A stretch of 64,000 nucleotides of DNA. It comes from Chamaelirium japonicum. Taxonomy: Eukaryota > Streptophyta > Magnoliopsida > Liliales > Melanthiaceae. The position numbers were made by a program, and so were the translations under genes. The stretch covers positions 52,893,428 through 52,957,427 of the forward strand of contig OX393552.1 in the NCBI GenBank assembly GCA_947650365.1, written 5' to 3'. Positions 2,991 to 44,160 of this stretch are shown piece by piece. Every line of letters begins with the position of its first letter. Positions within the stretch are counted from its first letter, which is position 1. The notes under the pieces are model-generated. The model did not search any database and was not told the DNA's origin. It saw only the letters and a program-made list of their open reading frames with translations.

Positions 2991-3062
2991 TTAAACTTGG
3001 TGCATGTCAAAGCGGCGACGTCTGCCCTGGACTTATTCTCATCGCCTCGGATAAGTATAGTT

Positions 3063-5393: not shown

Positions 5394-5946
5394 TGTTGGG
5401 AATTTTGATCCCACCACCGAGGCTCCTCGCAACGAAAAAAGAACGTTGAAGGTGCGAAGAACTGTACCAAAAGATGGCGCACACCAATTTCGAGAAGAAC
5501 GAACGATCAATGCATACCGAAGCACCAAACACTAGATGATTTCCGGCAACGACGATCTATGGATTCACTTAGAAAATGAATACAAGGAGTAAAACTCCAA
5601 CCAATCCCTCGCTCTAACCCGATGATGGCTACCCTCTCTTTGATCTCTCAAAGAGACTTTAGATCCTTCCTTCTCTTTCTTCTTCTCATCCCTAGAGGTC
5701 CTTTTATAGTCCCAAGTTCATGCAGGACATAGGAGAGAAGATAGAAATAAACCCCTACAAGTTATCTCGAAAACCCATGAAAATCGCAACCGAAACCGTG
5801 TCCCTCCGCATGCCTATATGATGCCTGGCGTCCTGGGTGCTAGTTTCCTGCGGACATGGCTGGGTCGCATCGGGTTGGCGCCCAGGGCGTCAGGCCCTGT
5901 TTTTAGCCTTTTTTCTCTCCGTCTTCGCTTTGTAGCTGCTCCATCT
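5394..5946 (-). mobile_element. Ty1/copia LTR, cut by the CACTA element
   Basis: The LTR 3' end on the minus strand is at 5394 (ATTCCCAACA), next to the copia primer site. The sequence runs to the CACTA terminus at 5947, where TCT target bases occur. Its outer end is not certain: it may resume after the CACTA element at 21,052, but I could not confirm that. An alternative edge at 5975 was considered and rejected. Confidence 0.6.
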
Positions 5947-16308: not shown

Positions 16309-18639
16309 TGTTGGAAATAAATCCATGGTAGAGGCCCGCAGCGGAAGCAAAGTGAAGGTCCGAGGACCGTGAGCGGTGTGCGTTACATATCAAAATTTTC
16401 ATCGAAACGATCTACATATGCGTGTATGAATCTAGCATGGCAACTACGCGAACCCCTAACGATGATCTAACGCGAAAGAACAAACTAGCATGAATGCATG
16501 TTCTAATTATGTTAGATCTACTTGTTAGAGGTCATACCTGCGTGCGAAATCTTTCACCGCGACAAATTTCTTCTTTGTCGATGGAGACGGGCTACGGATC
16601 TGCTCGACATAGCTTTGGTGCGACGGCCATAACTTTCTGCTCCGAACTCTGATTGGGCTGAAATTTGGACTGCAGGTAGCCAACTTCGAGACGCAACTTT
16701 TACAACAAGTTTCACGTCGTTTGGACTTCTGTAGCTCCCGGAACCGCAGAAACAACGTTGATTTTCTGTGCAGATTCTGGACAGCAAAAGGTTGCGGGAG
16801 ACGCCTTCTAGTTCACCCGATCTCACACGATGCACGGCACCTCGTCGATGGATCTCTGAGTGCCTCCATACGAAGAGTCTTCTCCTTCTACAAAACACCA
16901 CGTGAGGAAGACGAGTCGCCATCCAATGGCGCAAGCGAGAGAGCGAGAGAGATGAGAGAGGAGATGCGAAGAGAGGAGAGGGGGCGGCTAGGGTTTCCCC
17001 ATGCCATGGCCGGCCCTAGGGCTTGCATGGCTCTATTAATTTCGTGCCCCCTCTCTCTCCTTCTCATATATATAGCCGGCCTATCCATATGGATAAGGAC
17101 AGTATGGATAAGGATGATTGATTCAAGCCTTATCCCTATATATCTCTTCTTTATCTCTATCCTTTCCTTGTTTTCGAAAACGGTCAAAACCAGCCCGTTT
17201 TCTGCGCCTCATAACCGGCCCCTTCATCGGAGGCAACAACCTCTCGAAACTAATGGGGCCGGCCTTGACCAGTCTCTCAACACTTAGGGCCGGCCCCCTT
17301 AGTGCATAGTGGCGCATGGTATGACCAAAACGCCCTTATGCCACTAGTTGGCCGTTCCTCGTGTACGAGACTTTGCAAGGCACACATAAGTGAAGTGCAC
17401 CAGTGATTTCACTATTCTCTGAGGTTCCCGTAGGGTGCCCCTAGTGAAGTCAACTAGTCAACTCGCAACATGTCCCGGTGCATCGCACCCATATGGCAAA
17501 GTCCACTTATGGTAAGGAATTGCTACATGCGTCTCTGCACTAACCTAGGGTTTTCCCTTAGTGCACACACGTAGCTACGCATCTACCGAGCACTAGTGCA
17601 AAGCACTCACGGAGCGTATGCTTGGATTTCTCGCTTCCTCTAACTACGTTCTGTGTTTCGATGAGATGGTATAAGAACCATACATAATGTCGATAAGGTG
17701 GAACCTTCAGGGACCAGGGTTCATGGCTTCCAACTCAGACTCGATCGACACACTACCCGAGTGTACCATCGATCCTCTGAGTCTGAGTTAACCTGCGTAG
17801 CCACCCAGAGTGCGACGCAGGCTGCACTCCAATCCCCCCGGACTTACTATGTTCTCCTACATACCCCTGCTCTCCGCTTAGTATGGTAAACTCGTTGTCC
17901 CTCCACTGGTGCCATGATGCAACTCGAGCGGTGGAGAATACCGTCAGACTCGAGTGCTCATATGACTCGGTTCCTTCCAGGTTGACCACATACATCGTAC
18001 CTCCGATTACTCTTTCGAGCAACCGGATCCGTCACCAGTCCAACCGATGACCACCTGGCCAGGGTTTAATACAACGTAGGTCAGACCAAGGAACGCACCT
18101 CCCGTTAGGGGTGTGGATAGCCTGCAGGAGTGACACGCTGATGCAACGCCAGCCGGGTAACCCAGTACACCGTGGTTTTGGATCACTGTATCCGGATCCT
18201 CACACATTGGTGCGCCAAAGCACCACACAACTGGTTAGTCCACCAGACATGGTTCCTTAGGGTTTAGGACCGTTTTACCCTAAACAGAAACACGGTTTAG
18301 TACACTGATGTCTGCTCATCGATCTGTGCACCGTGTTGGTTCCGTTCGGCCACAGACACTGTGCCTGGTAATGACCGTGGTGGAGACACCCACGCTCTGT
18401 CATCCCAACAGCTTAACCTGATAGGGCGACCAACCCTAATCAGAGCTGCGAACGTATTTAGGTTACATGGGACCAGTCCCTTGAGTCTCCCACTCAAGTG
18501 GATTACCATGTAGCCATGGCTCTCTGTTCTGTAATCAGAACACGTACTAAGGTACGTACCAATATGCAATCCTATACTATCAACCATACAAAGCTAAACA
18601 CTAGGTTTTTACGAGCTATAGACCTCACCAATTCTAACA
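16309..18639 (-). repeat. 5' LTR of the copia element
   Basis: 2,331 bp, about 99.2% identical by eye to 8584-10914. Its inner edge (16309) adjoins the initiator-Met primer site ATTGGTATCAGAGC; its outer edge (18639) adjoins the CATTA duplication. Confidence 0.9.
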
Positions 18640-23312: not shown

Positions 23313-23509
23313 TGCACGGGTGGCTAGTCTTCAAAGGAGTCTGGCATCGACAAGCCTTAAGGTAGCTTGTACTTTATTATCTTTTTTGAGTATGTGGTCA
23401 TGTCTTGTACTTCCTTCTCTTTTGATAATAAAAGATCACCCTTCTGACTTGGATGACTTGTCTAAATTGTCTTTTGAACGTCTTGAATGTTTAATGAATG
23501 CTGTTATCT

Positions 23510-23625
23510 TTGGATGTTTTCGAGTGCCAAGGGTTGGACCTTGGGGTTGTTGAATATGCCGAAGCGTTGGGCTCTTCGGACTTTCGTCGAGTGCCAAGGG
23601 CTGGGCCTTGGGATTGGTTTTGATG
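23510..23625 (+). repeat. Two copies of the 67-bp Tat-like repeat
   Basis: CGAGTGCCAAGGG(T/C)TGG(A/G)CCTTGG occurs twice with GCCGAAGCGTTGG and CTTCGGACTTTCG between. It matches the array at 2007-2990 in sequence and in orientation relative to the coiled-coil ORF. Confidence 0.75.
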
Positions 23626-23644
23626 GAGATTAGAATTCAGAGTA

Positions 23645-25045
23645 TTTGACGACTAAGATCCAACAGGCCAAGAGCCAAGACTGCTGAGGCTGTGATGTCA
23701 AGATGGATAAGGTGAGGTGAGGTGAGATATCCAAGGCCATGAGTTAGCCTCATATCGCCTGGAGAGAAGGAGATCCTGATCTACTTATATAATTTCCCCT
23801 CCCAAACATAAAAGATGCATTTTAAAACCATGCGCTACTATGGATTTTGTAAGAACTCCGTAGTTACGCAGCTCGAGAGAGAGTAGTGCTAAGATGGGTA
23901 ACCTCCCTGGAAAGTCCTTGTGCCGGCATAAGTAAAGCGGAAAATATCTTGTGTGTTTGGGGCAGATGTTACAAAATGGTATCAGACCCGGTTCTTCTCG
24001 CAATGGGGGGGTCTAACCCTACACGTGGATGTATAGCCCTTAAGGGGGATGGATTGTGACGACCAAGATCCAATAGCCAAGACTCCTGAGGCTAGGATGC
24101 CAAGATGGATAAGGTGAGGTTAGGTGAGGTGTACAAGGCCACGAGTTAGCCCCCACATTGCCTAGAGAGAAGAAGATCCTAAGCTACTTATATAATTTCC
24201 CCTCTCAAACATAGAAGACGTATTTTAAAACCGTGCGCCGTTACGGATTTCGTAAGAACTCAGTAGTTAAGCGTGCTCAGGCGAGAGCGGTACTAGGATC
24301 GGTGACCTCCTGGGAAGTTCTCGTGCGGGCACGAGCAAAGCGGATAATATCTTGTGTGTTTGGGGTGAATGTTACAAAATGGCATCAGAGTCTGTTCTCT
24401 TCACAATAGGGGGGTCTAACCCTACACGAGGACGTGTAGCCCTAAGAGGGGTGGATTGGGATGACCAAGATCCAATAGGCTAAGAGCCAAGACTCCTTAG
24501 GTTGTGATGCCAAAATGGACAAGGTGAGGTGAGGTATCCAAGGCCATGAGTTAGCCCCATATCGCCTAGAGAGATGGAGATCATGAGTTACTTAAATAAT
24601 TTTCTCTCCCAAACATAGAAGACACATTTTAAAACCATGCGCCACTACGGATTTCGTAAGAACTCCGTAGTTAATCATGCTTGGGCGAGAGTAGTACTAA
24701 GATAGGTGATCACCCTAGGATATCCTCGTGCAGGCACGGGCAAAGCAGATAATATCTTTGTGTGTTTGGGATGGATGTTATAAAATGGTATCAGAGCCGG
24801 TTCTCCTCGCAATAGGGGGGTCTAACCATACACGTGGACGTGTAGCCCTTAAGGGGGGTGGATTGTGACGACCAATATCCAACATGCCAAGATCCAAAAC
24901 TCCTAAGGCTGTGATGCCAAGATAGATAAGGTGAGGTGAGGTGTCCAAGGACATGAGTTAGTCCCATATCATCTGGAGAGAAGGAGATCATGAGCTACTT
25001 ATATTATTTCTCCTCCCAAACATAGAAGACGCATTTTAAAACCGT
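23645..25045 (+). mobile_element. Cassandra TRIM multimer, plus orientation
   Basis: LTRs at 23645-23973, 24055-24376, 24457-24782 and a cut one at 24864-25045. Each starts TGTGACGACCAAGATCC (variants) and full copies end GGATGTTACA. Between them lie about 80-bp inner domains with a TGGTATCAGAGC-type primer site and an AAGGGGGGTGGAT-type polypurine tract. Each full LTR holds a 5S rRNA-like segment (GTTAAGCGTGCTTGGGCGAG with AGTAGTACTAGGATGGGTGA). This is the hallmark of Cassandra, a non-coding terminal-repeat retrotransposon in miniature. LTR-inner-LTR chains like this arise by recombination. Confidence 0.85.
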
Positions 25046-25238
25046 ACCCGCATGAGAACTTCCAGGTCACCCATCCTAATACTGCTCTCACCCGAGCACG
25101 CTTAAGTATGGAGTTCTTACAAAATCCGTAGCGATACATGGTTTTAAAATGCGTCTTCTATGTTTAGGATGAGAAATTATATAAGTAGCTCAGGATCTCA
25201 TTCTCTCTAGGCGATGTGGGGCTAACTCATGGCCTTGT
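25046..25238 (-). mobile_element. Cassandra LTR fragment, minus orientation
   Basis: Directly after the plus-strand partial LTR, the sequence continues as a Cassandra LTR on the opposite strand, from within the 5S-like block to the CCTTGTATACCT segment. The rest of this LTR resumes at 27,532 after an insertion. The head-to-head join is at about 25,045. Confidence 0.8.
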
Positions 25239-25259
25239 ATACCTATGGGCACCGAAATT

Positions 25260-25560
25260 AGCCCACTGATAGAACCGGACCCGCATGCAAAATTTGGCCC
25301 ACACACAACGGCCTGCATGCGAAATTGGCCCACACACAATGGCTCGGATGCGATACCTGGCCCGCGCATAACGGCCCACATGCGAAACTTGACCCACACA
25401 ATACGGCCCGCATATGAAACTTGGCCCACACACAACGACCCACATGTGAAACTTGGCCCGCATGAGAACCCGGTTCACACACAATGGCCCGAATGCGAAA
25501 CTTGGCCCATACACAACGGCCCGCATGCGAAACCTGACTAACACACACCTGACTCGACTC
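25260..25560 (+). repeat. Tandem repeat, ~33-bp unit
   Basis: About eight degenerate copies of GCCCGCATGCGAAACTTGG followed by CCCACACACAACG. The unit has the palindrome-like GCATGC. Open frames on both strands here are repeat artefacts. Confidence 0.75.
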
Positions 25561-25965
25561 AAGCAAACCCATGCAAAGGGGCCCACCAGCCCCTCTCTTG
25601 GAAACCATACCCCCTCCCCCATGGGGAGGTGTGATAGGCCATGAAGAAAAGGAAAAGAAAAAAAATATTAACCGCCTCGATGCGAGGGGAGGTGGCGTGG
25701 ACTTTTACGCAACCATAGATCCACGATGATCCCTCGATCTGGCGGACAAGATGACGTCGTGTTGTCATGCAATCGAAAAGTGCAAAGATGATAATATATC
25801 TCCAAAGATCAAGCCATATCTTGCCCATAACCATCCCCACAAAATAAGGAAAGGGATCAAGGTTGTTTCCCCCAAAAGAGAAAATAATATTTTGATGGTT
25901 ATGGAGAGAGATATTGAATTGATGCAAAAAATCACAGTCATATCTCTCCCAACCTCCCTTCTTTG

Positions 25966-25979
25966 TTTATAAATAGAGG
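25966..25979 (+). promoter_or_regulatory. TATA-like box in the 2.3-kb insertion
   Basis: TTTATAAATAGAGG after a pyrimidine-rich stretch matches the plant TATA consensus and is followed by G-rich sequence. It could be the U3 promoter of a solo LTR. Confidence 0.4.
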
Positions 25980-26384
25980 GGGTGGGGAAAGACATCGAGG
26001 GTCGAAAAAAATAGACGTGAAGGCTCTACAAAGAAGAAGTTCCAACGCTTGACGATTGAAGGCTTCGCGGGGAACGAGAAGGCGTATCCCAACAACTCGA
26101 AGTCGCCTATTGAAGTCCTTATCAAAGCGAAGGCCTTGCACTCGAAGATCAAACCTTTGACTCTTTGCACGAAGAAGAAAGCTTGGAGAAGAAGGCCCGT
26201 ATGTGTCATCACCTCAATGTCTCCAACGATCCTTATCAACTCCGAAGACGCCAAAAGCAAAGGCCGGAGGAGAAGATCGAAGCCGACAACACCCCGTCGT
26301 CTTCAATAAAGGCGTCGACTCCTCGCACGAAGAAGAAAGCTTAGAGAAGAAGGCCCGAAGCTGGTGCTACCCTCGCCATTTTAA

Positions 26385-26640
26385 TCAACAAAAGCCGACG
26401 CCACAATCGTCACACGAAGCCGGTGCTATCCCTGTTGTCTTCATCAATAAAAACCGATGCTACAATCGTCGCATAAAGATCGGTGCAACCCCTACCATCT
26501 TCATCAACAGAAGCCGATGCCACAACCGTCGCATGGAGATCGATGCTACACCTACCGTCTTCATCAATAAAAGTCAATGCTATAACCGTCGCATGGAGAT
26601 CAGTGCTACACCCACTATTTTCAAAAGAAGCCTTCGACTC
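26385..26640 (+). repeat. Tandem repeat, 60-bp (20-codon) unit
   Basis: Four to five copies of a unit with TCTTCATCAA, AAGCCGATGCCACAACCGTC and ATGGAGATCGATGCTACA. The 60-bp period keeps one frame open for 146 codons, with repeats like INKSRCHNRRMEIDATPT. No known protein has this repeat to my knowledge; a non-coding origin is more likely. Confidence 0.7.
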
Positions 26641-27531
26641 TGATCACGATAAAGAAGCCCGGAGAAGAAGAGAAGCAAAGTCAATGCCACAACCGTCACA
26701 CGGAGATCGATGCTACATCCATTGTCTTCAAAAGAAGCCTTCGACTCCAATCGCGCCAAAGAAACCCAAAGTAGAAGAAAAGTCAACGCCATCGCCACAA
26801 CCACCATTACCGAAATCCATCCCTAAGAAGCCGGAAGAATAAAGAAGTCTTGAAGACATCGTCATCATCGTTCAAGAAGAAGATCGAGCCAATGCCAAAG
26901 CAAAAGCCAATGCAAGAAGCCGAAGCAAAAGTATCGGTAAAGCCCATGCCAAAGCAACGCACGTGCTAAAGCCAAGCAACTACGACGGTCACGAGCAAAG
27001 CACCGCATGTTCTAGCAGATATAACGCGAAGTCTGAAAGAACTACAGCATCACAAGCCTCTACCCGTCTACTTTCAAGTGCAAGCGCCAAAGCAAAGCAA
27101 AAGCCATAGCCACGCCAAAACAAAGCCAAAACCGACGCCAAAAGCAAGATTAACATCGCGAACCGACGATCAAGGACGTCGAGATCTAGCTAGAGCCGAG
27201 GGAGACACAAAAACTGAGGAACGAAGCAAAAAGCCCCCTAGTCGAGAAAGCACGAAGCACGGAAGGGACAAAAGTAACGACGAAGACTCCTTAGTCTCTC
27301 AAAAAACCGTCACCCTGTAAAGATCTCTGTCCTAGGCAACCCCTTCAGAGCTCTTGCACGAAGTAATGTGGAGACACGGATCAAAGGGACCCTCCAGACG
27401 ATCTCTCCCACAATCTTCTGATCAAATCTTCATCGCACCCGGCTCACCACCCCGAGTCCTCGGGTCCCGCCCTTGTAATCTCTGTGTGCTTATAATAAAG
27501 ATGACTCATCTTTTTTCCACGCATATAATAC

Positions 27532-28829
27532 CTCACCTCACCTTATCCATCTTTGCATCCCAGCCTCAGGAGTCTTAGCTCTTGGCTATTGACTATTGGA
27601 TCTTGGTCATTACAATCCACCCCTTAAGGGCTACACGTCCACGTATAGGGTTAAACTCCTATTGCGAGGAGAACCGACTCTAATACCATTTTGTAACATC
27701 CGCTTCAAACATACAAGAAATTATCCGCTTTGCCCGTGTCCGCACGAGGACTTCCCAGGGGGGTCACCCATCCTAGTACTACTCTCACCTGAGCACGCTT
27801 AACTACGGAATTCTTACGAAATCCATAGCAGCGCACGGTTTTAAAACGCATCTTCTATGTTTGGGAGGGGAAAATTATATAAGTAGCTCATGATCTCCTT
27901 CTCTACAAGCGACGTGGGGCTAACTTATGGCCTTATACACCTCACCTCACTTCATTCATCTTGGCATCCCAGCCTCAGGAGTCTTGGCTCTTGGCTATTG
28001 GATCTTGGTCGTCACAATTCACCCCCCTTAGGGCTACACATCCATGTGTAGGGTTAGACCCCCCCCATTGCGAGGAGAATCGGCTCTACTACTATTTTGT
28101 AATATCCGCCCCAAATATACAATATATTGTCTGCTTTGCCCGTGCAGGCATGAAGACTTCCCAGGGAGGTTGCCCATCCTAGTACTACTCTTTCCCGAGC
28201 ATGCTTAACTACGAAGTTCTTACGAAATCTGTAGCGATGCACGGTTTTAAAACGCGTCTTCTATGTTTGGGAGGGGAAATTATAAAAGTAGCTCAAAATC
28301 TCCTTCTCTCCAGGCGATATAGGGCTAACTCATGGCCTTGAACACCTCCCCTTACCTTATCCATCTTGGTATCATAGCCTTAAAAGTCTCGGTTCTTGGC
28401 TCTTGACCTGTTGCATCTTGGTCGTCACAATCTACCTCCCTTAAGGGTTACACGTCCACGTGTAGGGTTAGACCCCCTTATTGCAAGGAGAACCAGCTCT
28501 GATACCAGTTTGTAACATTCACCCCAAACACACAAATATTATCCGCTTTGCCCGTGCCCGTACGAGGACTTCCCAAGGTGGTCACCTATCTTAATACTAC
28601 TCTCACCCGAGCACGATTGACTACGGAATTCTTACAAAATCCGTAGTGGCGCACGATTTTAAAACACGTCTTCTTTGTTTAGGAGGGGGAAATTATATAA
28701 GTAGCTCATGATCTCTTTCTCTCCAAGCGATGTGAGGCTAACTCGTGGCCTTGTACACCTCACCTCATCCATCTTGGCATCCCAACCTCAGGAGTCTTGA
28801 ATCTTGACTATTGGATCTTGGTCATCACA
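27532..28829 (-). mobile_element. Cassandra TRIM multimer, minus orientation
   Basis: Remainder of the split LTR (27532-27614), then LTRs at 27692-28016, 28098-28429 and 28511-28829 with three inner domains between them. The 5S-like block reads on minus (for example near 27,745-27,815). Primer site reversed: GATACCA next to TTTGTAACA. With the plus-oriented set this makes eight LTRs, four each way. Confidence 0.85.
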
Positions 28830-30130
28830 TAGTACTTGGCGTAGTGTCCCAATGTCGATCGACTTAGGTGAAGCACCGTTTTGGTCAAGTCAATATCAGG
28901 ACACGTAGCGTTGTACTGGTACAGGTTAGCCGGTCTTGTCTTAACCTGAACCGGATTAACTGTGGCGATGCATGGGAGCATGAATTCTTACATAACTCAG
29001 GAGCATGTGCGACGTTAAAGATTCGGAGTACTTAGTGTAGTGCCTATGTATTGGTTGACTTAGGCTTAAAGCCGTTTCGATCGAACATATGTCTAGGGCA
29101 CATAGTTTTGTACCGTTGCAGGTTAGTCGACCGTGTCACAACCCGAACCGGACTAACTGTGGCGAGGCATGGGAGCATGAGTTCTTATATAACTTGGGAG
29201 CATGTGCAATGCCAAGGATTCAGAGTACTTAGTGTAGTGCCCGCGTATCGGTTGACTTAGTCTTAAAGCTGTTTCAGTCGAACCTATGTCTTGGACATGT
29301 AGCTTTGTATCGTTGCAGGTTAGCTGGCCGTGTCGCAACCCGAACCAGATTAACTGTGGCGAGGCATGGGAGCATGAGTTCTTACATAACTCGGGAGCAT
29401 GTGTGACGCCAAGGATTTGAAGTACTTAGTGTAGTACCCATGTATCAGTTGACTTAGGTGTAGAGTCGTTTCGGTCGAACCTATGTCTAGGGCACGTAGC
29501 TTTGTACTGTTGCAAGTTAGACAACCTTGTCGCAACCCGATCGAATCGGACTAACTGTGACGTGGCATGGGAGCATGAGTTTTTACATAACTCGAAAGCA
29601 TGTGCGACACCAAGGATTCAGAGTACTCAACGTAGTGCCCGTGTATCGGTTGACTTAGGCTTAGAGCCGTTTCGGTCGAACCTATGTCTATGACATATAG
29701 CTTTGTATTGTTGCAGGTTAGTCGACCGTGTCGCAACCCGAACTGGACTAATTGTGGCAAGGCACGAGAGCATGAGTTCTTACATGACTCGGGAGCATGT
29801 GCGACACCAAGGATTTAGAGCACTCAGCGTAGTGCCCGTATATTGGTTGACTAAGGCTTAGAGCCGTTTCGGTCAAACCTATCTAGGGCACGTAGCTTTG
29901 TACCGTTATAGGTTAGCCGGCCATGTCGCAACCCGAACCAGACTAACTGTGGTGAGGCACGAGAACATGAGTTCTTACATAACTCGGGAGCATATGCGAT
30001 GTCAAGGATTCAGAGTACTTAGTGTAGTGCCCGTGTATTGGTTGACTTAGGCTTAGAGCTGTTTCAATCGAACCTATATCCAGGGCACATAGCTTGGTAC
30101 CATTGCAGGTTAGCCGGGCGTGATATATAT
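28830..30130 (+). repeat. Satellite array, ~198-bp unit
   Basis: About six and a half units. Anchors GGTTGACTTAGG at about 28,855, 29,050, 29,248, 29,447, 29,647, 29,845 and 30,037 give spacings near 198. Shared blocks: GAGCCGTTTCGGTCGAACCT, GTTGCAGGTTAGCCGGCCGT, GGGAGCATGAGTTCTTACAT. Copies differ by about 5-15%. It begins directly at the last Cassandra LTR edge and stops at a copia 3' end. Confidence 0.85.
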
Positions 30131-30472: not shown

Positions 30473-31077
30473 ATCCAAACAAACAGTGGAAGTGAAAAAT
30501 TATAGTTTTTGGCTTGACGACTTCCATCAAAACAAACAACGGAACTAGGACTTTCGACCGAAAGTCCCAATCAATACTTCCACCAATTCCGCCGCTTTCT
30601 ACACTTCTGTGATTTTTGAACAACCAAACGGCCCCTAAGGCAAGAGGAATGGCCCGATTTTTAAGTAGCCCCAATCATTTTTTCTGAACCCTTTGCATGT
30701 CTAACCAACCAAGTATCAGCTTTTTTTAGAGTATCCATCATCGTCATATCTGAGAGGGGTTAGGCATAGGGGAGCAATCCTTGACCTGACCAGAGTTAGC
30801 GGATTTGGGTTTGGACTAAACGGGTTCAGGTCATAAAAGAGTTGACCTGGTTGACCCGTTTTTTTAATGGGCTGGGTTTGGGTTTGGGTTTGGGTTTGGA
30901 TTTGGGTTTATCCTTATAACCCGATTGAGCCGTCCACTAACCGGACCCACCAACCGGAACCGACCGACTAGAGGAGATTTGAACTCCTGCTTCCTAGGTT
31001 AGTAGTTTGTTCAGCCGTCACTACTCTTTCGCGCAAAGGCCAATACCCTTCCCTTCCGTCTCACTAGCATAAAAGGG
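30473..31077. other. Upstream region of the argininosuccinate lyase gene
   Basis: Contains a MITE-like piece with AACCAAACGGCCCCTAAG near 30,621-30,640, an imperfect (GGGTTT)n run at about 30,865-30,910, and at about 30,965-31,020 a minus-strand tRNA-like remnant with a T-arm (GGAGTTCAAATCTCC). No clear TATA box precedes the ATG; the start of transcription cannot be placed from sequence. Confidence 0.4.
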
Positions 31078-34000
31078 ATGGACTCACTGTTCCAACCCCA
31101 CCGCCCGATCCTCCCAACCCTCCGGAAGCAGCACCCGTCCGCCGCCGGATCTCGCCTGCCGCCGCCGGGCTCCCATCGCTGCGTCCCCAACAGCCGGCAA
31201 AGGCTCGTGGCCGCTTGCCTGGCCGACGGCATGGCCGCCGCCGTCCGCTCCGCCGACCCCGAGGACCGGCAGAAGCCCAAGGAGAGCAAGTTGTGGGGCG
31301 GGCGGTTCGAGAAGAGCGTGACCGACGCCGTGGAGAGGTTCAGCGAGTCCGTCTCCTTCGACAAGGCGCTCTACAAGCAGGACATCATGGGTAGCCGGGC
31401 CCATGCCACCATGCTCGCCCAGCAGGTGGCGATTCTGCTCTTAGATGTCCATGTTTGTTTATAGTTTATCAAATTACGTTTCGCTCGGATTTCGCACTCC
31501 AGGTGTTTGAAGAAATGGTTTCTCAGCATCTTGGGTGACATTCATTTCCCTTAGGTGCGGAGGGCGATGGTTCTTTCAAATCAGAACATTTGATTCTCAA
31601 ACTATTGATGGACATTGAAACCGAACACAAACAATCGTTTTGGTGAGGCTGTGTAACAGAGCTAAGTTTAGGGCTATGTAAGTCTATAAATGTCGGTATT
31701 GATCAATCAGGGGTCATGCAATCTTGGATGCCGGTTTTATGCATTGATCGGTAGATGAAGGTAACTGAAGAGAAGTTGCGTCGTGTGAATCCACAGATGG
31801 AAGATCCAGTAAGAATGGTGTCTAAAGGGCCAATATTTAAAGGTTTAACATACATAATCAATTGACATAGAGTAGGCCCAACTTCTTGGGCTACTTTTGC
31901 TCTCATCCCAAGAGAACTATGAAGCCATTGAAATCCTGCCATCTTTGTAGAAACCCTTGACCACATAGAGAAGAATGATACATAGAGATTTTGACCATGA
32001 CATTTGATTTTCGGCATGCACTTTGAGTGCAACTAATGTGTGTCAGGAGTGGCAATTGATTACGATATTAGTATTTTTAGCTTAACTTTGCTATTTTATT
32101 AATGGGTTAAGAGTCACTCCAATAATCTTGTTGAAAGCTTCTCATCTGGATGAATAAAACTTAATAACAATGCAACCCTTAAATCAATTTTAAGCAGATC
32201 TTGGATCACCCACTTCCTCTTTTTTCCATTATATCGTCTTCTGATGGTGGGTTGCTTTATGTTTTCAGGGTTTGATGACTACTAGTGACAGAGACAGCAT
32301 ATTGCATGGTCTTGATAATATAGAGAGAAGCATTGAAGCAGGAGAGTTTGTGTGGAGGTCAGATAGGGAGGATGTTCACATGAATATAGAGGCAGCACTC
32401 ACAGACATGATTGGTGAACCTGCAAAAAAGCTCCATACTGCTAGAAGTCGAAACGATCAAGTTGTCACAGACCTTCGACTGTGGTGTCGGGAAGCCATTG
32501 ACAGAATTCTCATGCTCATCAAACAACTTCAGGTTTCTTCTAATTTTTGAACTGGACTTATTAATGTTGAGTTGTTACTGTTTTTTTTTCCATTTTCGTT
32601 GATTCAAATATGTTCACCTACTGAAAATTAGCAATACCTCAAGTTCCTTTTTTTTTTTTTTTCATTTTCTCTTCTCTTTTACATTTACAATGTCCACTAT
32701 ACTGGTACCAAATGGGCCAGTCATGCTAGACGATTGTAATAGAGAAGCTGGGACTCTTATGTTTTCTCTTTGAAGTTATATCCTAATGCTTGCCGTTCTT
32801 TTGTATCCTTTGTAAACTGTAGAATGTATGTTTATATCTAAGTAGATTGGGTGAAAAAATGTGCGTTCGGAATATGTTAAACTGTTGATCACAAAAAATA
32901 GGACTGCCCAAATATGCTGCAGGGGAAGAACACAATTTCTTATAGTCAAACTAAAGATATGATAAAGATGATTGTTTCCACATGCTAGGATTGTAAGAAA
33001 CTGAAGCAAACAAGTTATCTAGCAACGACAACCATTATTCTTCCTATGAATTCCAACCATGTTTTGCAATTTCACATACTGCAGAACTTTAATCATGTGA
33101 TATGGTGAGTACATAAATGGAGAAATTCGACCATTGCCTTGTCCATTACTAACGAGATCCAACTACTTATGGAAGTCATATCTAATACATTTTGCAAACT
33201 CTCGTGTTAAATGTCGATCAATCAGAGCATTGTCTGCGAACTCCATATAGTGATGGCAATATCTTAAATCTGCTTCTCTAATTAAGAATCAAAATATATT
33301 ATTACAAAATATTAATGTTTAGATGTACATATATTTTTCGTTTATGTCATTTCCATTACATGTATTTTTTCTTTTATTGTTGTGTGGTATTCTTATCCGT
33401 TGTGACCACACCCGATATATCACTTTATATTCTGACCTGGGATCCCTAGTTAATTGAGCTTGGCCCTTGAGGTCTTCTCCCCATGGTGCGCCCTTTGGGC
33501 CTTATTCTCCCATGGTATCAGAGCTTGGCTTTGAGCCACTTCGGTTTCTCCTCTTTAGGTTCCCCCTTCTCGGAGTTAGAGTTTTTGGATCCCTCCCTTA
33601 GGAGCTAGGTTCTCCCGTGTCGGCATCTTCCTCCACTTTCGACTTCCTCGTCTCAGATCGTCTTTATCTTCTCCAACTAGTTCTGGTTACTCTCATCTTC
33701 TCTGGTGGATCCCCTTTGTTGAGATGCAATCAACATCATCAATTCCATGATAGATCTCCGAAGCTCCATGCAATCATCTTTCAACGCTTTCACTCCACGA
33801 CTGATCTTATCACAACGACTTCAACTTTCCATCATTCAACCTTGTCTGCTTACGTATTTGGCAGTTTTATTACGAAATTTGCAGGTGCATCATATCCTAG
33901 TTCCACCATTGCTCAGTCATCTTCAACCATTTGAGCTAGTAGTAACAGACCTACATCTCCATTATTTTTGGGTGCTCATCTTCCAGAAAGACGGCCATGG

Positions 34001-37000
34001 TTTTCGATTCCGATTCTTCACAATTCCACATTGTTCACCTGCATTGGAGAAGTGGAGGGCGACTACCTTCACCGTTGATGTAGCAGGCTAGTAGCGTCGG
34101 CGGTAAATAAGGGAAAGAACCAGATTGCTTTGATTGAAGGAAGAAAGAAGCTTTAGAATGATAGAGGTGAGAAGGGTTTTTGATTTTAGTCGTTCTTCTA
34201 ATTCAACAACCTATGATTAAGGTTAGTTTTGTGCATCTTGCCCGTTAGTTCGGTTAAGTCGGATCAATGTTTTAAAAAACGGAAGGCGGAAGCCAGGCGG
34301 TCAAGTGGTTTCAAGGCGGAAGGCGGAAGGCGGACGACTAGGCGGGCGCCCGGAGAAAAAGGCGGGCGCCCACCTATATAAAATATATTATATATATTCT
34401 ATATGTATGTATATATATAAATTCATAATTCTATATAAAAAAACAATATTAGAAAGTTTTACATATGCAAACATTAAAACTACCGATCTGAATATAAAAG
34501 TTTTATGAAAAGGGAGGAGGGGATTGGGTGGGTAGGGGTATTTCGGTATGGTTACCTCAATACCTATACCCGATTGTCCCTCTAACTTGAGTATACTAGA
34601 TAATACAGTTGTACTCCAACTTTATTGTGATGTACCCAAATTTCAACCAATCATATATTGTTATCCAAATTCTATCCAAACTCATACCATACAAGAACCA
34701 ATATAGTAAAAAATCGTAAGAGCTTCTTAAACATTTCATCACAATACATTGAAAAAAAAAATTCCTCAAGCAATTGCATATGGTGAAGAAACAGAAAATT
34801 CATTACAGAAAAAAAAATTTCCTCAAGCAATTGCATACAGTGAGACCGCCTAGGCGCCCGCCTTTTACCCGCCTTTGTTCAACCCGCCTGCAGTGCCGCT
34901 TTTTGCTGAAGCGGAGCGGCCAACCCCCTAAAACGCCTAGGCGGCCGCCCAGACCGCCTTTTAGAACAGTGAGTCGGATGTCCATTTTTCTTATCTGAAG
35001 ATGAACTTGATCCAAGTTTTTTCAAATCATTTGGACTACTCGATCAACTTATGTGGTTGTAGATCCGACTCGACACTGTTCATCTCCTTCTCGAATCCCA
35101 TCGATTTTATGTCACCGCACCCCATGTTGCCGGTTTGAACATAGTCCAATCTACAATGAGAAAACAGATCTACTGGGTTGGATTCCAGCAACGACGGCCA
35201 CATCTCATATCCTTTTCAGATCGACTGTTGTTGTCGAGCTCGGAGCTCCCGATGAGCCACCATCCGTTGTCCTTCGAAGGGGATGTTGTGCTAGCACCAA
35301 ATTGAGATGATATGAGGGAGACAATTGCGGGATTTTGAGCAGTAGGCTGATCCTTAAGTGTCGCACAAGCTCTTTGCTTGCAATAGTGTTTTTCATGACA
35401 TTAAGATTCTCCTCCGAGCTCTGGGAATTAAGGGTGTCGAAGATGATGTTGATGGCAACTGCACGATCATTGTTGGCCATATGGAGAGCACAAATGGTGT
35501 CTATTTGGAGAAATCACGAGCACTTGATGTTGATGCCTATGGTCAAGCTGCATTTACTTTGGTCTTATGGAGGATCCAAGGTGTTACTTTGCTGCGTTGT
35601 TGTTGTTGTTTGCTTCTGGCTACAGAGGTGCCGCTGATTCCAGTGGGTAACATCTACGTTACTACTTTGTTATGCTGATTTAGGGCTGTGCGCACCAGGC
35701 GCTAGATGTTTGCTGCCACTTCTTGATCGTTGTTCCAAGCCATGATTCTCTCTTCTGGTGTTTGCACTTTGTTGCCGTCGGTCTTACCAAATTTGGTATT
35801 GGGGTGCTGCCCCTGGTTCCTTGCAACGGGTGCGCTCAATTAAGTTCACATCCCCCTAGACCCCTCGAAGCTTTAATAAGAAGCAGTGTGGCCCTACTCC
35901 GTTGTTCTTCTTTACCAGCCATAGTCACAAAAATCTCCGATTTATTGAAAAAATCGCGTTTAAAACGCGACTAACAACTCTGCCGATTTTTTGCCGATTT
36001 TAACCCCGATTTAATCAAGTCACAAAAATCGCCGATTTATTCGGCGATTTTTTGAATAAAACGGATTAAGTTGGCCGCTTTTTGTGACAGTGTGATTTTA
36101 TTTTAAGTTATTCTGCGGGTCTATGTTACCGCATGATTAATAATCAACTGGCCACTGTTCTCTGAGAGTAAACAGTTTGATCCCTCTCTTCTCCGACCGC
36201 GAGGCGACATAGGGCCACAGGCTAGGGCCCCGAACTTGCTGAATTTTTTCAAATTTTACCCTCGCCGATTAAAACCCGAACCCGTTTTTTTTGCCGACTT
36301 TTACCCGTTTTTTTCCCGAACTTTCCGATTTTCACCGAACTTTACCGAATTTTACCCTCGCCGACTTATTGCCGAACCCGAACTTGGTGACTATGTTACC
36401 AGCGACCCTTGTTACTTGAGGCCAAGGTCTTTCTAGCCCTTCTTCGGCCAAGATCTTTTTTGATGCCAAGTTCTCCTTCATCGTCGGTGACTGTCTTCAC
36501 TTTCGAGAGCTAGGGTGTGAGAGATGCTCACCCACCTACGATTAAGAGTTTGGGTAAGGAGGTTGGGTAAGGAGGAGTGGCTGTGATAAAAGAGGGAATA
36601 TAGTCTGAACATCAATTAAGAGAATTAATGAGAGAAAGAAGGGGTGCAACCTGTCTTCAAAGCCTTGTGTTGTTGTCCTCTTTTAATGGGATTTAAATTC
36701 ACCTATCTAATCTCTCCATATCCAAACATCAATCACCTCCTTTGTGGTTCTTCAAATCAACATGCCTTATCCACCCTTGATTCTCATTCGTGTGATGCAA
36801 TTCTCGTTTGTGGGGATCGAATTCTTTCTTGACCCATCCGACTCACCTCGATTCACACCATGTGTCATAGCTTGTAGTGGTTTAATCACTTCTCATTGCA
36901 TGGACATGATGTATCCTGGCTACAGATCTTGTTAATGGGCTTGATCACCTACAAAATAAATATAAAATAAGGTCCATTATTTCCCCCAAAAAAATAGAGA

Positions 37001-40000
37001 AAAAGAATAATATTAACTATCGACCTCTATGTTTTTCATGCAGGCAAAGTATGAATGTGAACCGATATGCTATTGAGTTCATAACTTCATATGACAACCT
37101 ACAATGCAATGGTACAAAGAAAATAGCATGCTTTGCGTGCATTATGGAAGTTTTACGTAGAAGACTGATGATGATGCAATAGCAAATTAAGGAGTAAAGA
37201 TGTAATTTTCATGACTCAACATCTTTCATGACCTTTTAAGCTCCGTGTTCTTTGCGTGCATTATGGAAGTTTTACATAGAAGACTGATGATGATGCAATA
37301 GCAAATTAAGGAGTAAAGATGTAATTTTCATGACTCAACATCTTTCATGACCTTTTAAGCTCCATATTTCCTCCTAGATAATGTATTTGCACGTCAAAGA
37401 AGAGCAACCAGCCTACGCATATTTACGTCACGTAGGCAACTACATCACCCGTCTTCAACATGGAGAAGTTTAATCAATACATAGTCAATTCCAGATTGAT
37501 AATAGTGCTAGGTACTCTCTCCCGAGCTTCTAAATAGGTCTGAGAACCGACAATGAAAAATTATCATCTAATAAATCTATCATGTTAATGACGCCTATCA
37601 GATGGTGGTAAATATATAACATGAGTTGTAGCGGTCTTTAGTTAGGAGAATTGGGTTCCGATATGGAGAGGTCACTTATTGATTGATGATGGAGATGATA
37701 ATAATAAGTTAAGAATTAGTCCAAATCTTTGACTTATATGCCTTTCCCTGAAGGCAAAAGTGAAGTTGTCAGTTATTTCCATGATCAACCAACAAAGATG
37801 TTGATTAGTTGTGCATATAATCTCTTGCCATTCTTTTTGTGATTTGGAGTTTCTACTTTTCTCATGGTGAAGAATTCCATATTTTGAAGGTGGACTGTTT
37901 CTTCAGGAAAGCCTAGGTGATTACTCATTTCGTCTTTAAGACCATCCTATCTTGAATCATTTACTTTATCCTTATAAAGTCCATCCTTACTCATATATCC
38001 TTCTAATTTTTACTTAAATCTGCTCCCTTTATTAAAAACCCTAGCACCGAGCTTTCTTCCTGCTTCACTCTAATCAAACCTTGGTTTTTATCCTTTTTTT
38101 TTTATTCTCTATCCTTTAAATGTCTAAAACTTTCGTACCAATATCTCATATATTACGCCCTTATAACACCAACTAAGCCATCTATTACGAAAATCTCGAC
38201 ACAGGGATCCTTACCAGCAAACACAACCTTGAGTTCAATACCCTTTATTGACAAATAATTTTTGGCCATTCCAATTGCCTGGGCCTAAAACACGAAGACT
38301 CTAGCTAGCAGACCTAGCAACCCTTTCGTGCATTGCTTGCCTGGAGTCTCTTTTATGCTATTATAAATCCCATCTGCATTTAATATTTCCATGCAATAGA
38401 ATCCTCACTGTAAGTCTTAGGCAAATTCTCAGCCACTACTTAGACAAGTTGGAGTTTCTTGCACAATTGCAACTCCATCTTACTAGATTCCTCCCCGTTG
38501 TTTTTTGTTTGAAGGCCTTTCATAATTTTGAAACTGTTTACTGATATATATTGTCAAATATATGAATAATATGCAATGTAGCATATAGCTCATTGGGACT
38601 GTATGTAGACTTCTTTATGATTTCCAATGAGTTTTATTACATTTTCATAGCAGTTGATAGTACCTCTGCCGATAAGTTCACAAAAAATAAAAAGAAAAAG
38701 AAAAAAAGATCAAGAACTTGTTAATTGGATGCACTTTTTGTGATTGATGCCAGCTGATATATAATGTTTAAAAAGTACTATATAGATCTTTAACGTTTAA
38801 TTTACTCTTTATTCCTTCTAACATTGCTGATATTTTTCTTTCCTACAACTGTTTTTTATACTGTTATTTTGTTCATACATGATGTTTTGAACATTATATG
38901 ATAGGTATTATTAGCTTATTTGTTTTTATGCTTTCCATTGATCCCGATGAATAGTTTATTTGCACATATTCTAATTTTCCATCCTTTCAATACTGCCATA
39001 CATCTTTTTTCCAAATTACATGCTTTTGTCTGATAGAATGAAGTCAAATTATATAATTTCAGGTGGCGCTAGTTAACTTGGCTATTGAAAATGAAGGCGT
39101 GATAGTTCCTGGATATACTCATCTACAGAGGGCACAACCTGTTCTGCTGCAGCATCTTCTGTTATCATATGTCGAGCAGGTAGAATATATGCATCATTAG
39201 TGACTTACAATAGATCCAGATACTTTATATTGTAGTACTCTTTTATGGTTTAACCAAACACCAGGGACTACAAATTTTACATCTAGGATTCATAAGTTTA
39301 GAACTAATGTGTTGATTTGAAGGAAGTACCCAGTATTAATAAATCATGTACTTCTAGATCAAAAATTTTATATTCAGTTGAAGAAGTTAGATCTCGCAGC
39401 TGTCAAATCACAGAATGTTTAGCTTTTATTTCATACAGAAGGCACCATAATCATAACCAGCAAGTGTTATTCTATCAACTACAGTATTTTGAAAAGATTA
39501 GATGGGGTGAAATCAAATGTTTTGCTGCTATTTCGAGCTAAAGATACCGCAATCATAACCAGCACATGTGATTTTCTAGTTACAACTTACAACAATTTCA
39601 AAAAATTAGATGGACACTGAAATGATGGAAAGATGAAAGGGGCAGGTGGAACGTTTCGACATGCTCCAAAGGTAAGTGAAAACATTTCAGAAAAAGAACC
39701 AGGTCCATTTTTTTCATTGTAAAATTTTAAACGGTGCACCACCTATTTTCTATTCCTTGGGGCATAGTAGTTGATTAGAACCTTTGCTTATTGAAATGCG
39801 ATTTGCTTATTGATATACGAGAATGCTGATGGCCTACATTACCACAACCTCTTTTATGCTGGCTCCGAAATGCTGAAAAAAGAGAGAAAGAATGATAATA
39901 ATTTGTAGTTCATGCCTTAATCTCGTAATCTATCGAGAAAATACACCTGGAAACTTAGTTAGAGAATTCGAATAACAGGACATATGATTTTTATTCTTTT

Positions 40001-43000
40001 TTCACCTGGGAAGACAGTTGTTTTAGCTTTAGAGTTGCAAAGTAGAACGTATGGGGCATAATTACTGTTCATGATATCTTCATTGCTGTCCTTTCACCTG
40101 GGCTTCATCTGTTGCCTAGGTTGATACATAAGCCTTCACTGGTACTTCACATGCGATCTATCTGAACATCAAGTGAATGGACAAGTATATGTTGACAAAA
40201 TTGGCTTCCAGGTTCAGTTAAACAAACAAACTTCTAAAATGAATCCAAATCTAGTTTTTAAGTTATCTTCACATTCCTTAATGCAAGAGATGAGCCAAGT
40301 GACAGTTACGTTGTGTGAAGCAAAATTTGCTGTAGATAATGACATGTGATGGCCTAATCTGTTGTATATACGTTTGATGAAGAATCTTATAAATCTTTAT
40401 CTACAGTTTCATCATTACAATGTATGTTAATGCCATAGCCAAACTGATACTTTTCTCAAATAAATTGAGATACACTCTATTACCTTTTTTCGTTGCACCT
40501 GTTTTCACACCTTTAAAATAACACAAACTAATGCATCAACCCATAGCAACTGCTTTACATGTGTCAATTGCTTTAGTTTTTAGTCTTATTGAGGAGAATA
40601 AGAATAAGTTTTTCTTGATCAAAGTTTTGTTATGTCCTTTGTATCTCTGGCTAATGTAATATATGCGCGCCTAATGGATTTAGTTTACATAAATCTCACA
40701 TGATAGTAATGATTTTTTGTAGCTTGAACGTGATTATGGTCGATTTGCCAATTGTAAAGATCGGATGAACTACTCCCCCCTAGGTGCTTGTGCTTTGGCT
40801 GGTACTGGCCTTCCTATCAATAGATTCATGACTTCAGATGCATTGGGGTTTACTGCACCTTTGAGGAACAGGTACATTATCATTCTCTAAAATATTCCTT
40901 GCATTATTATCCCTAGAACCCAATTGCATGGCTAGTTGGTTTTAAAGTCTTGCTTTTTGCTAGTTGAAAGCTTCACCAATTTGAATTATTGGTGCTTTGA
41001 TTAGTCCATATCATTCTAAATTAAATTCGTCTAGTTTGTGTTACCCCCTCAGATGTAGTATATAGTATATACAAATCACTAAAATTGACAGTTTTTTATT
41101 CAACTGGCCTGATTTTGTTCAGATTTGGATTATGTAGATGTTGGTTTTCTAATCTTTGGGATTTAGGTTAAGAATTCTGACCTGATTCTTAAATGGATCA
41201 GGCACTGGTCATAGAATTGACCAGTTCGGCTCATTCTTTGTCTACATTGATTTGTCATATAGGGCATTCAAATCACTTGCCCAAATGCGCAAATGATGGT
41301 CCCAACAAAATGGTCTCTGACAATTGATATCATTAAGAGAAATCCTAAACTTAACTCCTTGTTTTCTCTTTTCTTTACCCATTTGATCTCTTCTATCCAT
41401 GGTTATCAACTTCATATCTTCGATGTTGAAAGGGATAGTATTAATGCCAACCCTCCCCTCTCATCCATTTTCTTCCTCTTTTTGAGCCAATTCCAAACCA
41501 AAGTTGATTACCCGTCTCTTCACAAGTCACAACACCCCGTACTAATCTCTCTTCACAAGTCACAACACCCCGTACTAATGTATGTGTTTATACTTCATAG
41601 ATCTTATACATATTATAATTTTTTAGTTACCTTTCAGTGATCTTGATTATTTGTGAATGAATAGTTTTTTGTGAATTTGTTGCAAACATGTTCCTTTTAA
41701 GAAGATAGGATATTGTTTCTTTAAACAATTTGGCTGGGTACTTTGTTCGAAGCACATAGTTGGGTTGTGTGTTGGGCCTAGCTTGCTAGTTGTTTTGGTT
41801 GAGTCGTGTAACCCTATACTTGTTGACATGGAAGTTGACCTGACCCAACTCATTCCCACCCATAGGAGTCACCACTTCTTTTGAAATGCAGAAAAGTTCA
41901 TCAAATTATTTGGAACTACAAGTTGGTTTAAAAGTATTAAAAAATTCAGTTGGTTTCCCCCTTTGATACTAGCTTGCTAGTTGTTTAGGTTGCATTGCAT
42001 GAGCCTAGACTTGTTCATATGAGGTTGACCCGATCAAGCTCATTCCCATCCATAGGAGTCCGACTTTTCTTTCAAAATGCGGTAAAGTGCATAAAATTAT
42101 TTAGAAAAATAAGTTGGTTTGAAATTATACAAGAAATTAAGTTGATTTCCTACCAATATCAAGTTGGTAAGGAGTGAACAAAAATGAGATGATAAGGAAG
42201 CAAAAAAAGGAACTCAATGCTTAAGATCTATATCAAGATGAGTGGTAGACCAAGAGGGAAGGTAAACATGATATTCCTCTAAATGCCATCAATATATTGA
42301 TGTGATAACGAACATTTTTCTTTCCTTTATATTACCATGGGAGAAAGCCTTAAGGGACTGCTTCATGAGGAGAAACCCATAGCGCTTGCTCAAATGTATT
42401 AGGACACAAGGGGCCAATATATAAGGACTTACAGTTAATGCAAGGTGTGATCACCTATGGGTGAAACTGCCACATAACAAAGAAGGAAAAATACATAAAA
42501 GGAGAGGGATTAACTATATACATAATCCCCCACGATGCCCTCTCTCTCTCCCTCTCTCTTAAACTCAGGATGTGTTACACATGGAGTTTTCTGAAGCTGT
42601 GAGGGCAAAAGTGTTAGACCGATCTACAAGCAGGCTGTTCTAAAAACAGGTAGACTTGCAAGCAAGCCGACTTAGAGACAAGCCATGGATTGGATGTTTG
42701 AGCCTTCCATAGTATATGGAGGACAGGAAACCTAAAGCGAAGTAATCACCTCTCCCATACTTCGGCACATGTTAGTTTTCAAAGGTAAACCCAAGTCGAT
42801 AATCCATAATATCTCAATGAAGCAGTAAGTTCCATATATCCTCATCCTCAGGGCAAATTTCTCACTTCCTGTTTGTAGAGAATGTAGTCCTACCCTGTAT
42901 ACCTATCCATGGAAAAGTTGGACCTTATGAGATACTACCTTGTTCCAAACAACTTATAGCTATTTAGAATTTCTCTATAGAGAGGAATGATTCGGTTAAG

Positions 43001-44087
43001 AATGACTTTAGTATTCCATCTCCACTCTTTAATGTTGGCATAATCGCTATTTTAAGTTATCCTAGAACTCAAATGAAGGAAGTGCTACCTTCCTGCACTT
43101 ATCTTGCATCCTCTTTTGAAGATAGATAGTCAAAAGTTTGCTTCCCTTCCCTAATAGAATAGAGCTCTAAGATTGGAGGCAATTTGAAATAGCTCAAGAA
43201 AAAACTAAGGTTTAATCAAATCACCACAACAAAGAACAATGCAATACTAGAGTTTATCACACCATTCAACCTTAAACTTTACTCTTCAAATTATTCTGGA
43301 TTCTTCATGATATTATTGCATTCCTCCACACCAGAATATTATACCTCAATCTGATCATCTTTTCTTCTGATTAATTCCGCTCTCCTTCCATCTCTTATTT
43401 ATGGTGTCTCCCTCTGATGACCTTTTGTTAGCCATTTTAGCTTAAAAGGCATATTCACCATCCTTGAATTTCACTTCGCACAAACAACGTGTCCTTTTGA
43501 GAACTCATACTTTTTACCCTGCCATAGAGAATCACTATGAATATTTTAATCTTAAACAAATTGGTGGCTAAGTTAAATTGAAGTGAGATAATTGGGTCGT
43601 TAGTTAACATCATCATGACAAGAATTGTTCTTTATCCAAACATAAGTAATTTTCTTTCGTCTTGCCAATCTTTTGTCAAATTTCTCCGCATCCAATTTGT
43701 GAGTCTTTAAATCTTTCCACTAGTTGGGTCAAATAAAAACTCACATCTTGATTCTTACCCCAAGTAATATAATGATGACATTGTGTGAGATCCATCCTCC
43801 CATATTATAATCAGGGCATGTTTACTGGATTTACTATTGACAGTTATCCACTTACAGGAAAACAAGCTGTCATTATAACTTGTCCCTCATTTCCACATTT
43901 GCAAGCAAAGATCAATAATAATAGGACATCATTTTTTGGCCAGTTTTTGCGAGGACTTTGTTTAAAAGAGCCTCCAAAAAAAAAAAATACGCATCGCATT
44001 GCAACCTTCGGTTTTATTGAAACTCTACTCCGCCTATCTAGTATCATTGTCTAACAAGTGAAGCCCCATAAAAGTCCATTTGCATCC

Positions 44088-44160
<73 letters not shown>

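Follow-up and report, generated by a model that had tools for sequence, protein, structure and literature searches.

A cluster of eight long terminal repeats (LTRs) of Cassandra, a terminal-repeat retrotransposon in miniature (TRIM) with a 5S-derived block in its LTRs, occupies positions 23645-28829 of the 64,000-nucleotide stretch of Chamaelirium japonicum DNA analyzed here (the window; C4:52893428-52957427 of the 1.52-Gb assembly). The cluster is a single insertion with a 5-bp target site duplication (TSD), two inverted arms, an outward unique 3′ (U3) end at both borders and a short overlap at the join of the arms, and other inverted Cassandra insertions bracketed by TSDs are present in the same genome. 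Inverted multimers are integrated as single units through either two U3 or two unique 5′ (U5) ends. We consider it likely that an inverted multimeric Cassandra complementary DNA (cDNA), made through a strand switch or fold-back by reverse transcriptase, integrated once and that the cluster is what remains of it.

Architecture and Cassandra identity of the cluster

Cluster units align with one another at E values down to 1e-131, which is beyond chance, and the LTRs follow in the order P1-P2-P3-P4 (cut) on the plus strand and D (cut)-C-B-A on the minus strand (MD to MA below; Table 1). An earlier note, made from the letters of this DNA, had described four plus and then four minus LTRs, a join within the LTR near 25,045, and an inner domain with primer site and polypurine tract between adjacent LTRs. 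Alignment located all eight LTRs, placed the join at 25041-25046 and recovered the inner domain in all six within-arm cases, each with a recognizable primer-binding site (PBS) and polypurine tract (PPT). The head-to-head orientation given in that note has to be reversed: the arms lie tail to tail, both pointing towards the join with their U3 ends outermost. Its count of three whole LTRs and one cut LTR per arm holds, with the addition that the cut minus LTR is also split by a later 2.3-kb insert.

Whole LTRs measure 319-332 bp; they start with TGTGACGACC and finish with GATGTTACA, or variants of these, after which come a PBS resembling TGGTATCAGAGC and a purine tract. The inner domains are short (77-81 bp) and non-coding, and in all six the PBS TGGTATCAGAGC lies beside the 5′ LTR with 0-3 mismatches and is followed by the PPT. 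The 5S block is kept in seven of the eight LTRs; plus LTR 4, at the join, ends before it, so that the claim of a block in every LTR is correct for all but this one. Matches to the Rfam 5S_rRNA model (positions 1-120) were obtained for five of the seven block-bearing LTRs (P2, MA, MB, MC, MD) and for both LTRs of an intact Cassandra element in the window that served as reference, all of them at 26.1-36.1 bits and below the gathering score of 38; P1 and P3 gave no match. Boxes A and C are exact or have one mismatch in P2, P3, MB, MC, MD and the two reference LTRs (E5 and E3), P1 has no matching box A, the MA box A has two mismatches, and both boxes are exact in one block-bearing cluster LTR (MC). 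With 5S block, PBS, PPT and short inner domain all present, the assignment to Cassandra stands.

The reference element is flanked by cTTGT and aTTGT, which agree in 4 of 5 positions. TG...CA ends and 5-bp TSDs are likewise found among 11 non-inverted loci (L002-L007, L044, L045, L047-L049): the TSD agrees 5/5 in L002, L003, L004, L007 and L049, as well as in L047 if the last two LTR bases are set by eye, and 4/5 in L044; L005 and L048 have none, and one end is missing in L006 and L045.

Because a 2,284-bp insertion splits minus LTR D, the minus arm is not contiguous. This insert is nested but is not Cassandra, and is bracketed by the TSD ATACC at 25239-25243 and 27528-27532 (by eye). Near one of its ends, which are not plain TG...CA, it has GC-rich tandem repeats of 32 bp, and near the other AATAAA.

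With opposite-orientation TRIM units inside a single TSD, the cluster is an inverted tandemly arrayed TRIM (TA-TRIM). In an ordinary direct TA-TRIM all units share one orientation and the two ends are a U3 and a U5, which is not the case here. Nor does it look like Cassandra nested in Cassandra, since both LTRs are truncated at the join, which shows no duplication.

Table 1. Features of the Cassandra cluster and the reference element (window positions)
Feature	Position	Strand	Basis or remark
Left TSD GAGTA	23640-23644		single copy in 8/8 fetched host-repeat relatives (7 distinct)
Plus LTR 1 (P1)	23645-23973	+	alignment; outer U3 end at 23645, TT instead of TG
Inner domain with PBS and PPT	23974-24054	+	alignment
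Plus LTR 2 (P2)	24055-24376	+	alignment
Inner domain	24377-24456	+	alignment
Plus LTR 3 (P3)	24457-24782	+	alignment
Inner domain	24783-24863	+	alignment
Plus LTR 4 (P4), cut ahead of its own 5S block	24864-25046	+	alignment
Inverted join, CCGTAC in place of the 6-nt overlap CCGTGC	25041-25046		read from the sequence and alignments
Minus LTR D, inner part, cut after GCACGG just beyond its 5S block	25041-25243	-	
Nested insertion, 2,284 bp, solo-LTR-like, later	25244-27527		by eye; class inferred
Minus LTR D, outer part	27528-27614	-	alignment
Inner domain	27615-27691	-	alignment
Minus LTR C	27692-28016	-	alignment
Inner domain	28017-28097	-	alignment
Minus LTR B	28098-28429	-	alignment
Inner domain	28430-28510	-	alignment
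Minus LTR A	28511-28829	-	alignment; outer U3 end at 28829
Right TSD TAGTA	28830-28834		4/6 further adjoining 197-bp units read GAGTA at the same phase
Intact Cassandra, reference	48478-49185	+	LTR 48478-48789, inner domain 48790-48869, LTR 48870-49185

One integration into a host repeat

The cluster interrupts a host repeat (23380-23644 and 28830-30122) made of 67-bp units followed by 197-bp units, which has many relatives in the genome. The right flank is the 197-bp tandem repeat, and the left flank ends in ten bases identical to the majority sequence of the 197-bp unit in the required phase; outside the array, none of the 126,596 other window positions shows such a ten-base phase match (ten having been fixed as the length with the data in view). 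The flanking 5-mers, GAGTA and TAGTA, agree in four positions, and random 5-mers of the window agree in at least 4 of 5 positions in 1.8% of draws. The 67-bp unit is also found in the region 1649-4720.

The left flank also occurs at other places in the genome, in a search with 285 matches. Among the matches listed, eight non-self places (L029-L036; L031 and L032 have the same sequence) reach its last base, and all eight run unbroken from the left flank through one GAGTA (six) or AAGTA (two) into the right flank. When the two flanks of the cluster are joined, they align across the insertion point in 8/8 of these relatives with 74.1-81.6% identity and 1-18 gap bases. The closest of the eight, L034, aligns over 374 columns with 1 gap base, or 6 if both TSD copies are kept; keeping both copies costs exactly 5 extra gap bases in the two relatives tried (L034 and L030). 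Since the joined flanks are contiguous in these empty sites, the cluster is one insertion, and the whole of it entered once with a 5-bp duplication, as seen at most other complete copies in this genome. As U3 lies at both outer ends, what integrated was an inverted multimer.

The inverted join

Plus LTR 4 can be followed up to CCGT(G/A)C at the join; from there the sequence is that of an LTR on the reverse strand, starting at the complement of GCACGG. The two LTRs overlap by the 6-nt word CCGTGC, whose reverse complement sits across the 5S block; when window LTRs are joined inversely at random, 0.16% of the joins overlap by at least 6 nt. Since CCGTGC and GCACGG flank the 5S block, the arrangement matches a fold-back in which this block forms the loop. 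The stretches 24939-25043 and 25140-25244 show 88% complementarity and are separated by 96 nt.

A 381-nt segment across the join has a predicted fold of -177 kcal/mol (z = -14.7; 100 shuffles, mean -91, standard deviation 6), a strength that follows from the inversion itself. Long double-stranded RNA from the cluster is possible on this prediction. Runs of four T can stop RNA polymerase III (Pol III). TTTT runs lie beside the join on both strands and the promoter boxes are decayed, and a long Pol III hairpin RNA was set aside as a function of the cluster.

Age and likeness of the arms

The cluster LTRs, whole and cut, are 80.8-88.0% identical in pairwise comparison, with means of 85.2% within the plus arm, 84.1% within the minus arm, 84.6% between the arms and 84.1% between cluster and reference. 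The two LTRs of one element are identical when inserted; those of the reference element are now 85.0% alike. In age the cluster is comparable to the reference insertion; it has no young pair, and none of its chains grew recently. The earlier note had proposed that arms as different as random copies would point to independent insertions. The numbers do come out that way (84.6 versus 84.1%), but the conclusion does not follow, as the empty site shows one insertion; the comparison does not discriminate, because the reference element's own LTRs are only 85.0% alike.

The LTR tree is weak, none of its seven inner branches being well supported. Constraint tests, between whose steps log-likelihood values differed, disfavor separate plus and minus arms; fixed multifurcating trees gave impossible log-likelihoods (mirror below star) and were not used. 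A tree with both reference LTRs apart from all eight cluster LTRs was not rejected (approximately unbiased [AU] test, p = 0.37), which fits a single origin of the cluster without proving it. A split into two subtypes (P1, P3, P4, MB versus P2, MA, MC, MD) suggested itself by eye and likewise passed unrejected (AU p = 0.37), but was dropped, with 2 of 18 informative sites in its support.

Other inverted Cassandra insertions in the genome

DNA searches of the genome scored 40 of 5643 first-look Cassandra candidates and 40 of 3328 join candidates. As searches with exact ten-letter words overlook decayed copies such as L057, and 40 candidates were scored in each DNA search, all counts given here are lower bounds.

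With the join as query, the window and two further places, L041/L056 and L042/L057, aligned over nearly the whole query. In L056, the alignment puts the join at the same place, where the letters now read CCGTAT, and the flanks are unrelated to those of the window cluster; in L057, the inverted join breaks inside the 5S block. The outer ends of both are confused, and no TSD is claimed for them. At about 4490-4520 of L057, a Cassandra LTR directly follows a stretch resembling a gypsy-type 3′ end and purine tract, possibly a recombinant or a trace of an autonomous partner.

The pattern TTTTAAAACCN{80,110}GGTTTTAAAA occurred at six places, three of them Cassandra by their letters and one of these the window (control, 2), while the same two words at a spacing of N{50,80} gave 13 places, none of them Cassandra (control, 8). 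The first of these patterns led to L058, an inverted dimer of 1,322 bp (4275-5596) with the structure LTR-inner-LTRcut/LTRcut-inner-LTR, a perfect TSD GAGAG on both sides and U3 at both ends. Its mirror parts are 98.2% (outer LTRs), 99.1% (cut LTRs) and 100% (inner domains) alike, and its other LTR pairs 96.0-100%. L058 is a young inverted insertion and the clean case.

Among 14 further Cassandra loci (L002-L008 and L043-L049, a set that leaves out the window copies L001 and L040, the join-spanning L041 and L042 and the hand-picked L037-L039), three are inverted within a perfect TSD; because the 14 were chosen by similarity to the cluster, 3/14 is no genome-wide rate. L046 (962-1804) has the TSD ATAGC (5/5), U3 at both ends, its join at GCACGGGC and LTR parts 90-94% alike. 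L043 has the TSD CTTCC (5/5), U5 at both ends and the overlap CGTGC, and its left end and flank are also duplicated. L008 (1405-3264) has the TSD GTGGC (5/5), U5 at both ends, the orientation minus-plus-minus-plus and two same-strand jumps, its three orientation switches lying at or near LTR/inner-domain borders; it may hold a nested inverted dimer. Direct chains are present as well, with five LTRs in L002 (TSD GCATA) and three in L007 (TSD GAGAA).

A join hot spot at GCACGGGC was considered and is suggestive only. One join end lies there in 4 of 6 inverted joins (hits in the window, L056, L046 and L043; misses in L058 and L057; the L008 joins left out), and since the window is the index case and L056 was found with the join as query, the count falls to 2 of 4.

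Two further arrangements were seen. L037 (974-2310) has a minus chain and then plus pieces, with no clear duplication. L039 (C5:26574869-26575641) and L038 (C5:26592598-26593370) are opposite-orientation Cassandra copies about 17 kb apart with identical match scores, and probably form a larger inverted duplication.

How the inverted multimer may have arisen

In the history that we favor, Cassandra cDNA would be synthesized by enzymes presumably supplied by an autonomous partner, and the growing strand would switch to a same-sense strand, or fold back, at CCGTGC/GCACGG on either side of the 5S-derived block. Copying back to the start of U3 would then yield two chains joined tail to tail, each with its U3 end outermost, and integrase would join these two like ends to the target, giving the 5-bp duplication. 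Afterwards the units would have decayed and another element would have inserted in minus LTR D. We infer that reverse transcriptase made the join; the switch may have been in cis or in trans, and the four LTRs per arm may have been present at insertion or reached soon after. More generally, the inverted multimers would be produced when reverse transcriptase switches strands at short stretches of complementarity, frequently within or next to the 5S block.

The main rival needs no fold-back copying and leads to the same product: prior to integration, microhomology end joining would fuse the U5 ends of two linear cDNAs or chains, and integrase would use the remaining U3 ends. We take it seriously, as the distinctly less probable account. 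Both cut LTRs have lost their 3′ parts, as end joining would have it, and the overlaps read by eye are short, with 6 nt in the window, 5 nt in L043 and about 3 nt in L057 and L046. Several further observations speak against strand switching or fold-back, the strongest for end joining being the roughly 4 filler bases, with no clear overlap (by eye), at the L058 join and the lack of mirror pairing. A simple snap-back in cis predicts that mirror partners are the closest copies, which is not so here. In the pairwise LTR alignments, proposed earlier as a check on whether the arms copy each other, mirror pairs are not the closest, and the mirror pairing ranks 23 of 24 possible pairings; given this rank and the identities above, the sequence does not allow the conclusion that one arm is a copy of the other. 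Trees with all mirror pairs held together are disfavored (AU p = 0.013), single mirror pairs gave p values of 0.063, 0.036, 0.045 and 0.006 when constrained, and a shifted pairing fares no better (AU p = 0.011). In L058, too, the closest LTRs are the outer minus and the cut plus (202/202) and not a mirror pair. Snap-back fits only on the condition that the units hardly differed when they formed; failing that, the joining of two molecules describes the data better. The proposed switch point is not singled out by length either, since the majority LTR holds other inverted words, two of them of 8 nt and thus longer than CCGTGC, and the stem CCGTGC/GCACGG is predicted (as RNA) strongly in two of eight whole LTRs, partly in three and hardly in three. 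Against end joining, the U5-U5 insertions would require the opposite ends to be joined, and the three switches and two same-strand jumps of L008 within one TSD are easier to obtain by template switching, which makes L008 the best argument for copying.

Three further explanations were weighed. Two separate Cassandra insertions of opposite orientation, fused by a later deletion, would agree with arms that differ like unrelated copies (84.6 versus 84.1%) and with the abundance of Cassandra (5643 first-look candidates); this is highly unlikely, as the outer flanks form a contiguous empty site in 8/8 relatives, the same 5 bp would be needed twice, and L058 and L046 show the same architecture inside perfect TSDs. 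It is also very unlikely that part of an ordinary direct chain was inverted later. Direct chains do occur (L002, L007), but at the right border an exact U3 end abuts the TSD, so that an inversion breakpoint would have had to hit this point by chance, and no remnant of a U5 end is seen there. Neither of these two histories is expected to leave an exact U3 end against each copy of the duplication. As for an assembly artefact, inverted repeats can be put together wrongly and the window was seen as assembled sequence; it is nevertheless extremely improbable, since no two cluster LTRs exceed 88.0% identity, so that reads are separable, the TSD and empty site fit biology, and one arm holds a later insertion with its own TSD.

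Other features of the window

Direct repeats at about 8584-9562 and 16309-17287, 7,725 bp apart and 99% alike over the 300 nt compared, are probably the LTRs of a young retrotransposon. A 98% direct repeat (1649-1948 and 4421-4720) surrounds 67-bp and 107-bp tandem arrays. A Type-P1 twister ribozyme match lies on the minus strand at 7891-7963 (68.3 bits versus a Rfam gathering score of 67.2; E = 2e-13). Lyase gene pieces, argininosuccinate-lyase-like by reading, extend over about 31006-45788, and the Pfam Lyase_1 match at 44610-45074 was the sole one among five window open reading frames given to Pfam.

Relation to described TRIM arrays and implications

Direct chains of Cassandra and other TRIMs are well described, and in the portions available to us both LTR recombination and template switching are proposed for them (PMC7215508, PMC11899658), the choice between reverse transcription and later recombination being left open. 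The Cassandra tandem arrays of Kalendar et al. 2020 (PMC7215508) resemble the cluster in their LTR-inner-LTR chains, 5S block and PBS TGGTATCAGAGC; template switching is one route proposed there to concatenated cDNA, and self-complementarity of LTR and 5S is predicted. Unlike the cluster, these arrays are, in the text available, direct, and "inverted" refers there to primers or PCR. The rice tandem LTR retrotransposons (Mob DNA 2025, PMC11899658) are also direct, with "inverted" confined, in the part accessible, to a cited title, and whether tandems form before or after insertion is left open, as for the cluster. Nested antisense EVADE and LTR hairpins (EMBO Rep 2024, PMC11624286) share with it opposite LTR copies and possible silencing hairpins; as far as the accessible text goes, EVADE differs in being a second insertion into a first, not a single integration.

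The closest precedent, and the only one in the literature searched, is in maize. Although the earlier note knew of no inverted TRIM chains, a Fig. 2 legend of Gao et al. 2016 (PMC4717578) reports a tandemly arrayed TRIM with two inverted Zma-SMART units. Like the cluster, it has inverted TRIM units inside one 5-bp TSD (CTTCA), and it appears in a figure of PCR-tested arrays; by the printed coordinates, its 559-bp span amounts to two whole 280-bp TRIMs, with no multi-LTR arms. The available portion of that article contains no discussion of the SMART join or its mechanism; its authors detected no 5S sequence in any TRIM apart from Cassandra. No inverted Cassandra insertion was found in the literature searched, part of which was accessible; Yin et al. 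2014 and Maiwald et al. 2021 could describe some. On these sources, an inverted TRIM pair was already known, and the inverted Cassandra chain is a new variant.

As an inverted chain within one TSD cannot be made by unequal crossing-over between LTRs alone, inverted multimers can form before integration, and insertion by two U3 or two U5 ends suggests that integrase can do without a pair of unlike ends. It is tempting to speculate, as a tentative idea that may well prove wrong, that the 5S-derived block is both a promoter and a built-in strand-switch point, so that palindromic or patchwork cDNAs would form regularly, be integrated by the partner's enzyme through like ends (U3-U3 or U5-U5) and leave hairpin loci that could feed small interfering RNA (siRNA). 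If this is so, inverted insertions would be a sizeable class (3/14 sampled loci), and hairpin loci, some of them nearly perfect (L058), could supply siRNAs that silence the family. Both the hairpin-siRNA idea and the mechanism can be put to the test in young and almost perfect inverted copies such as L058.

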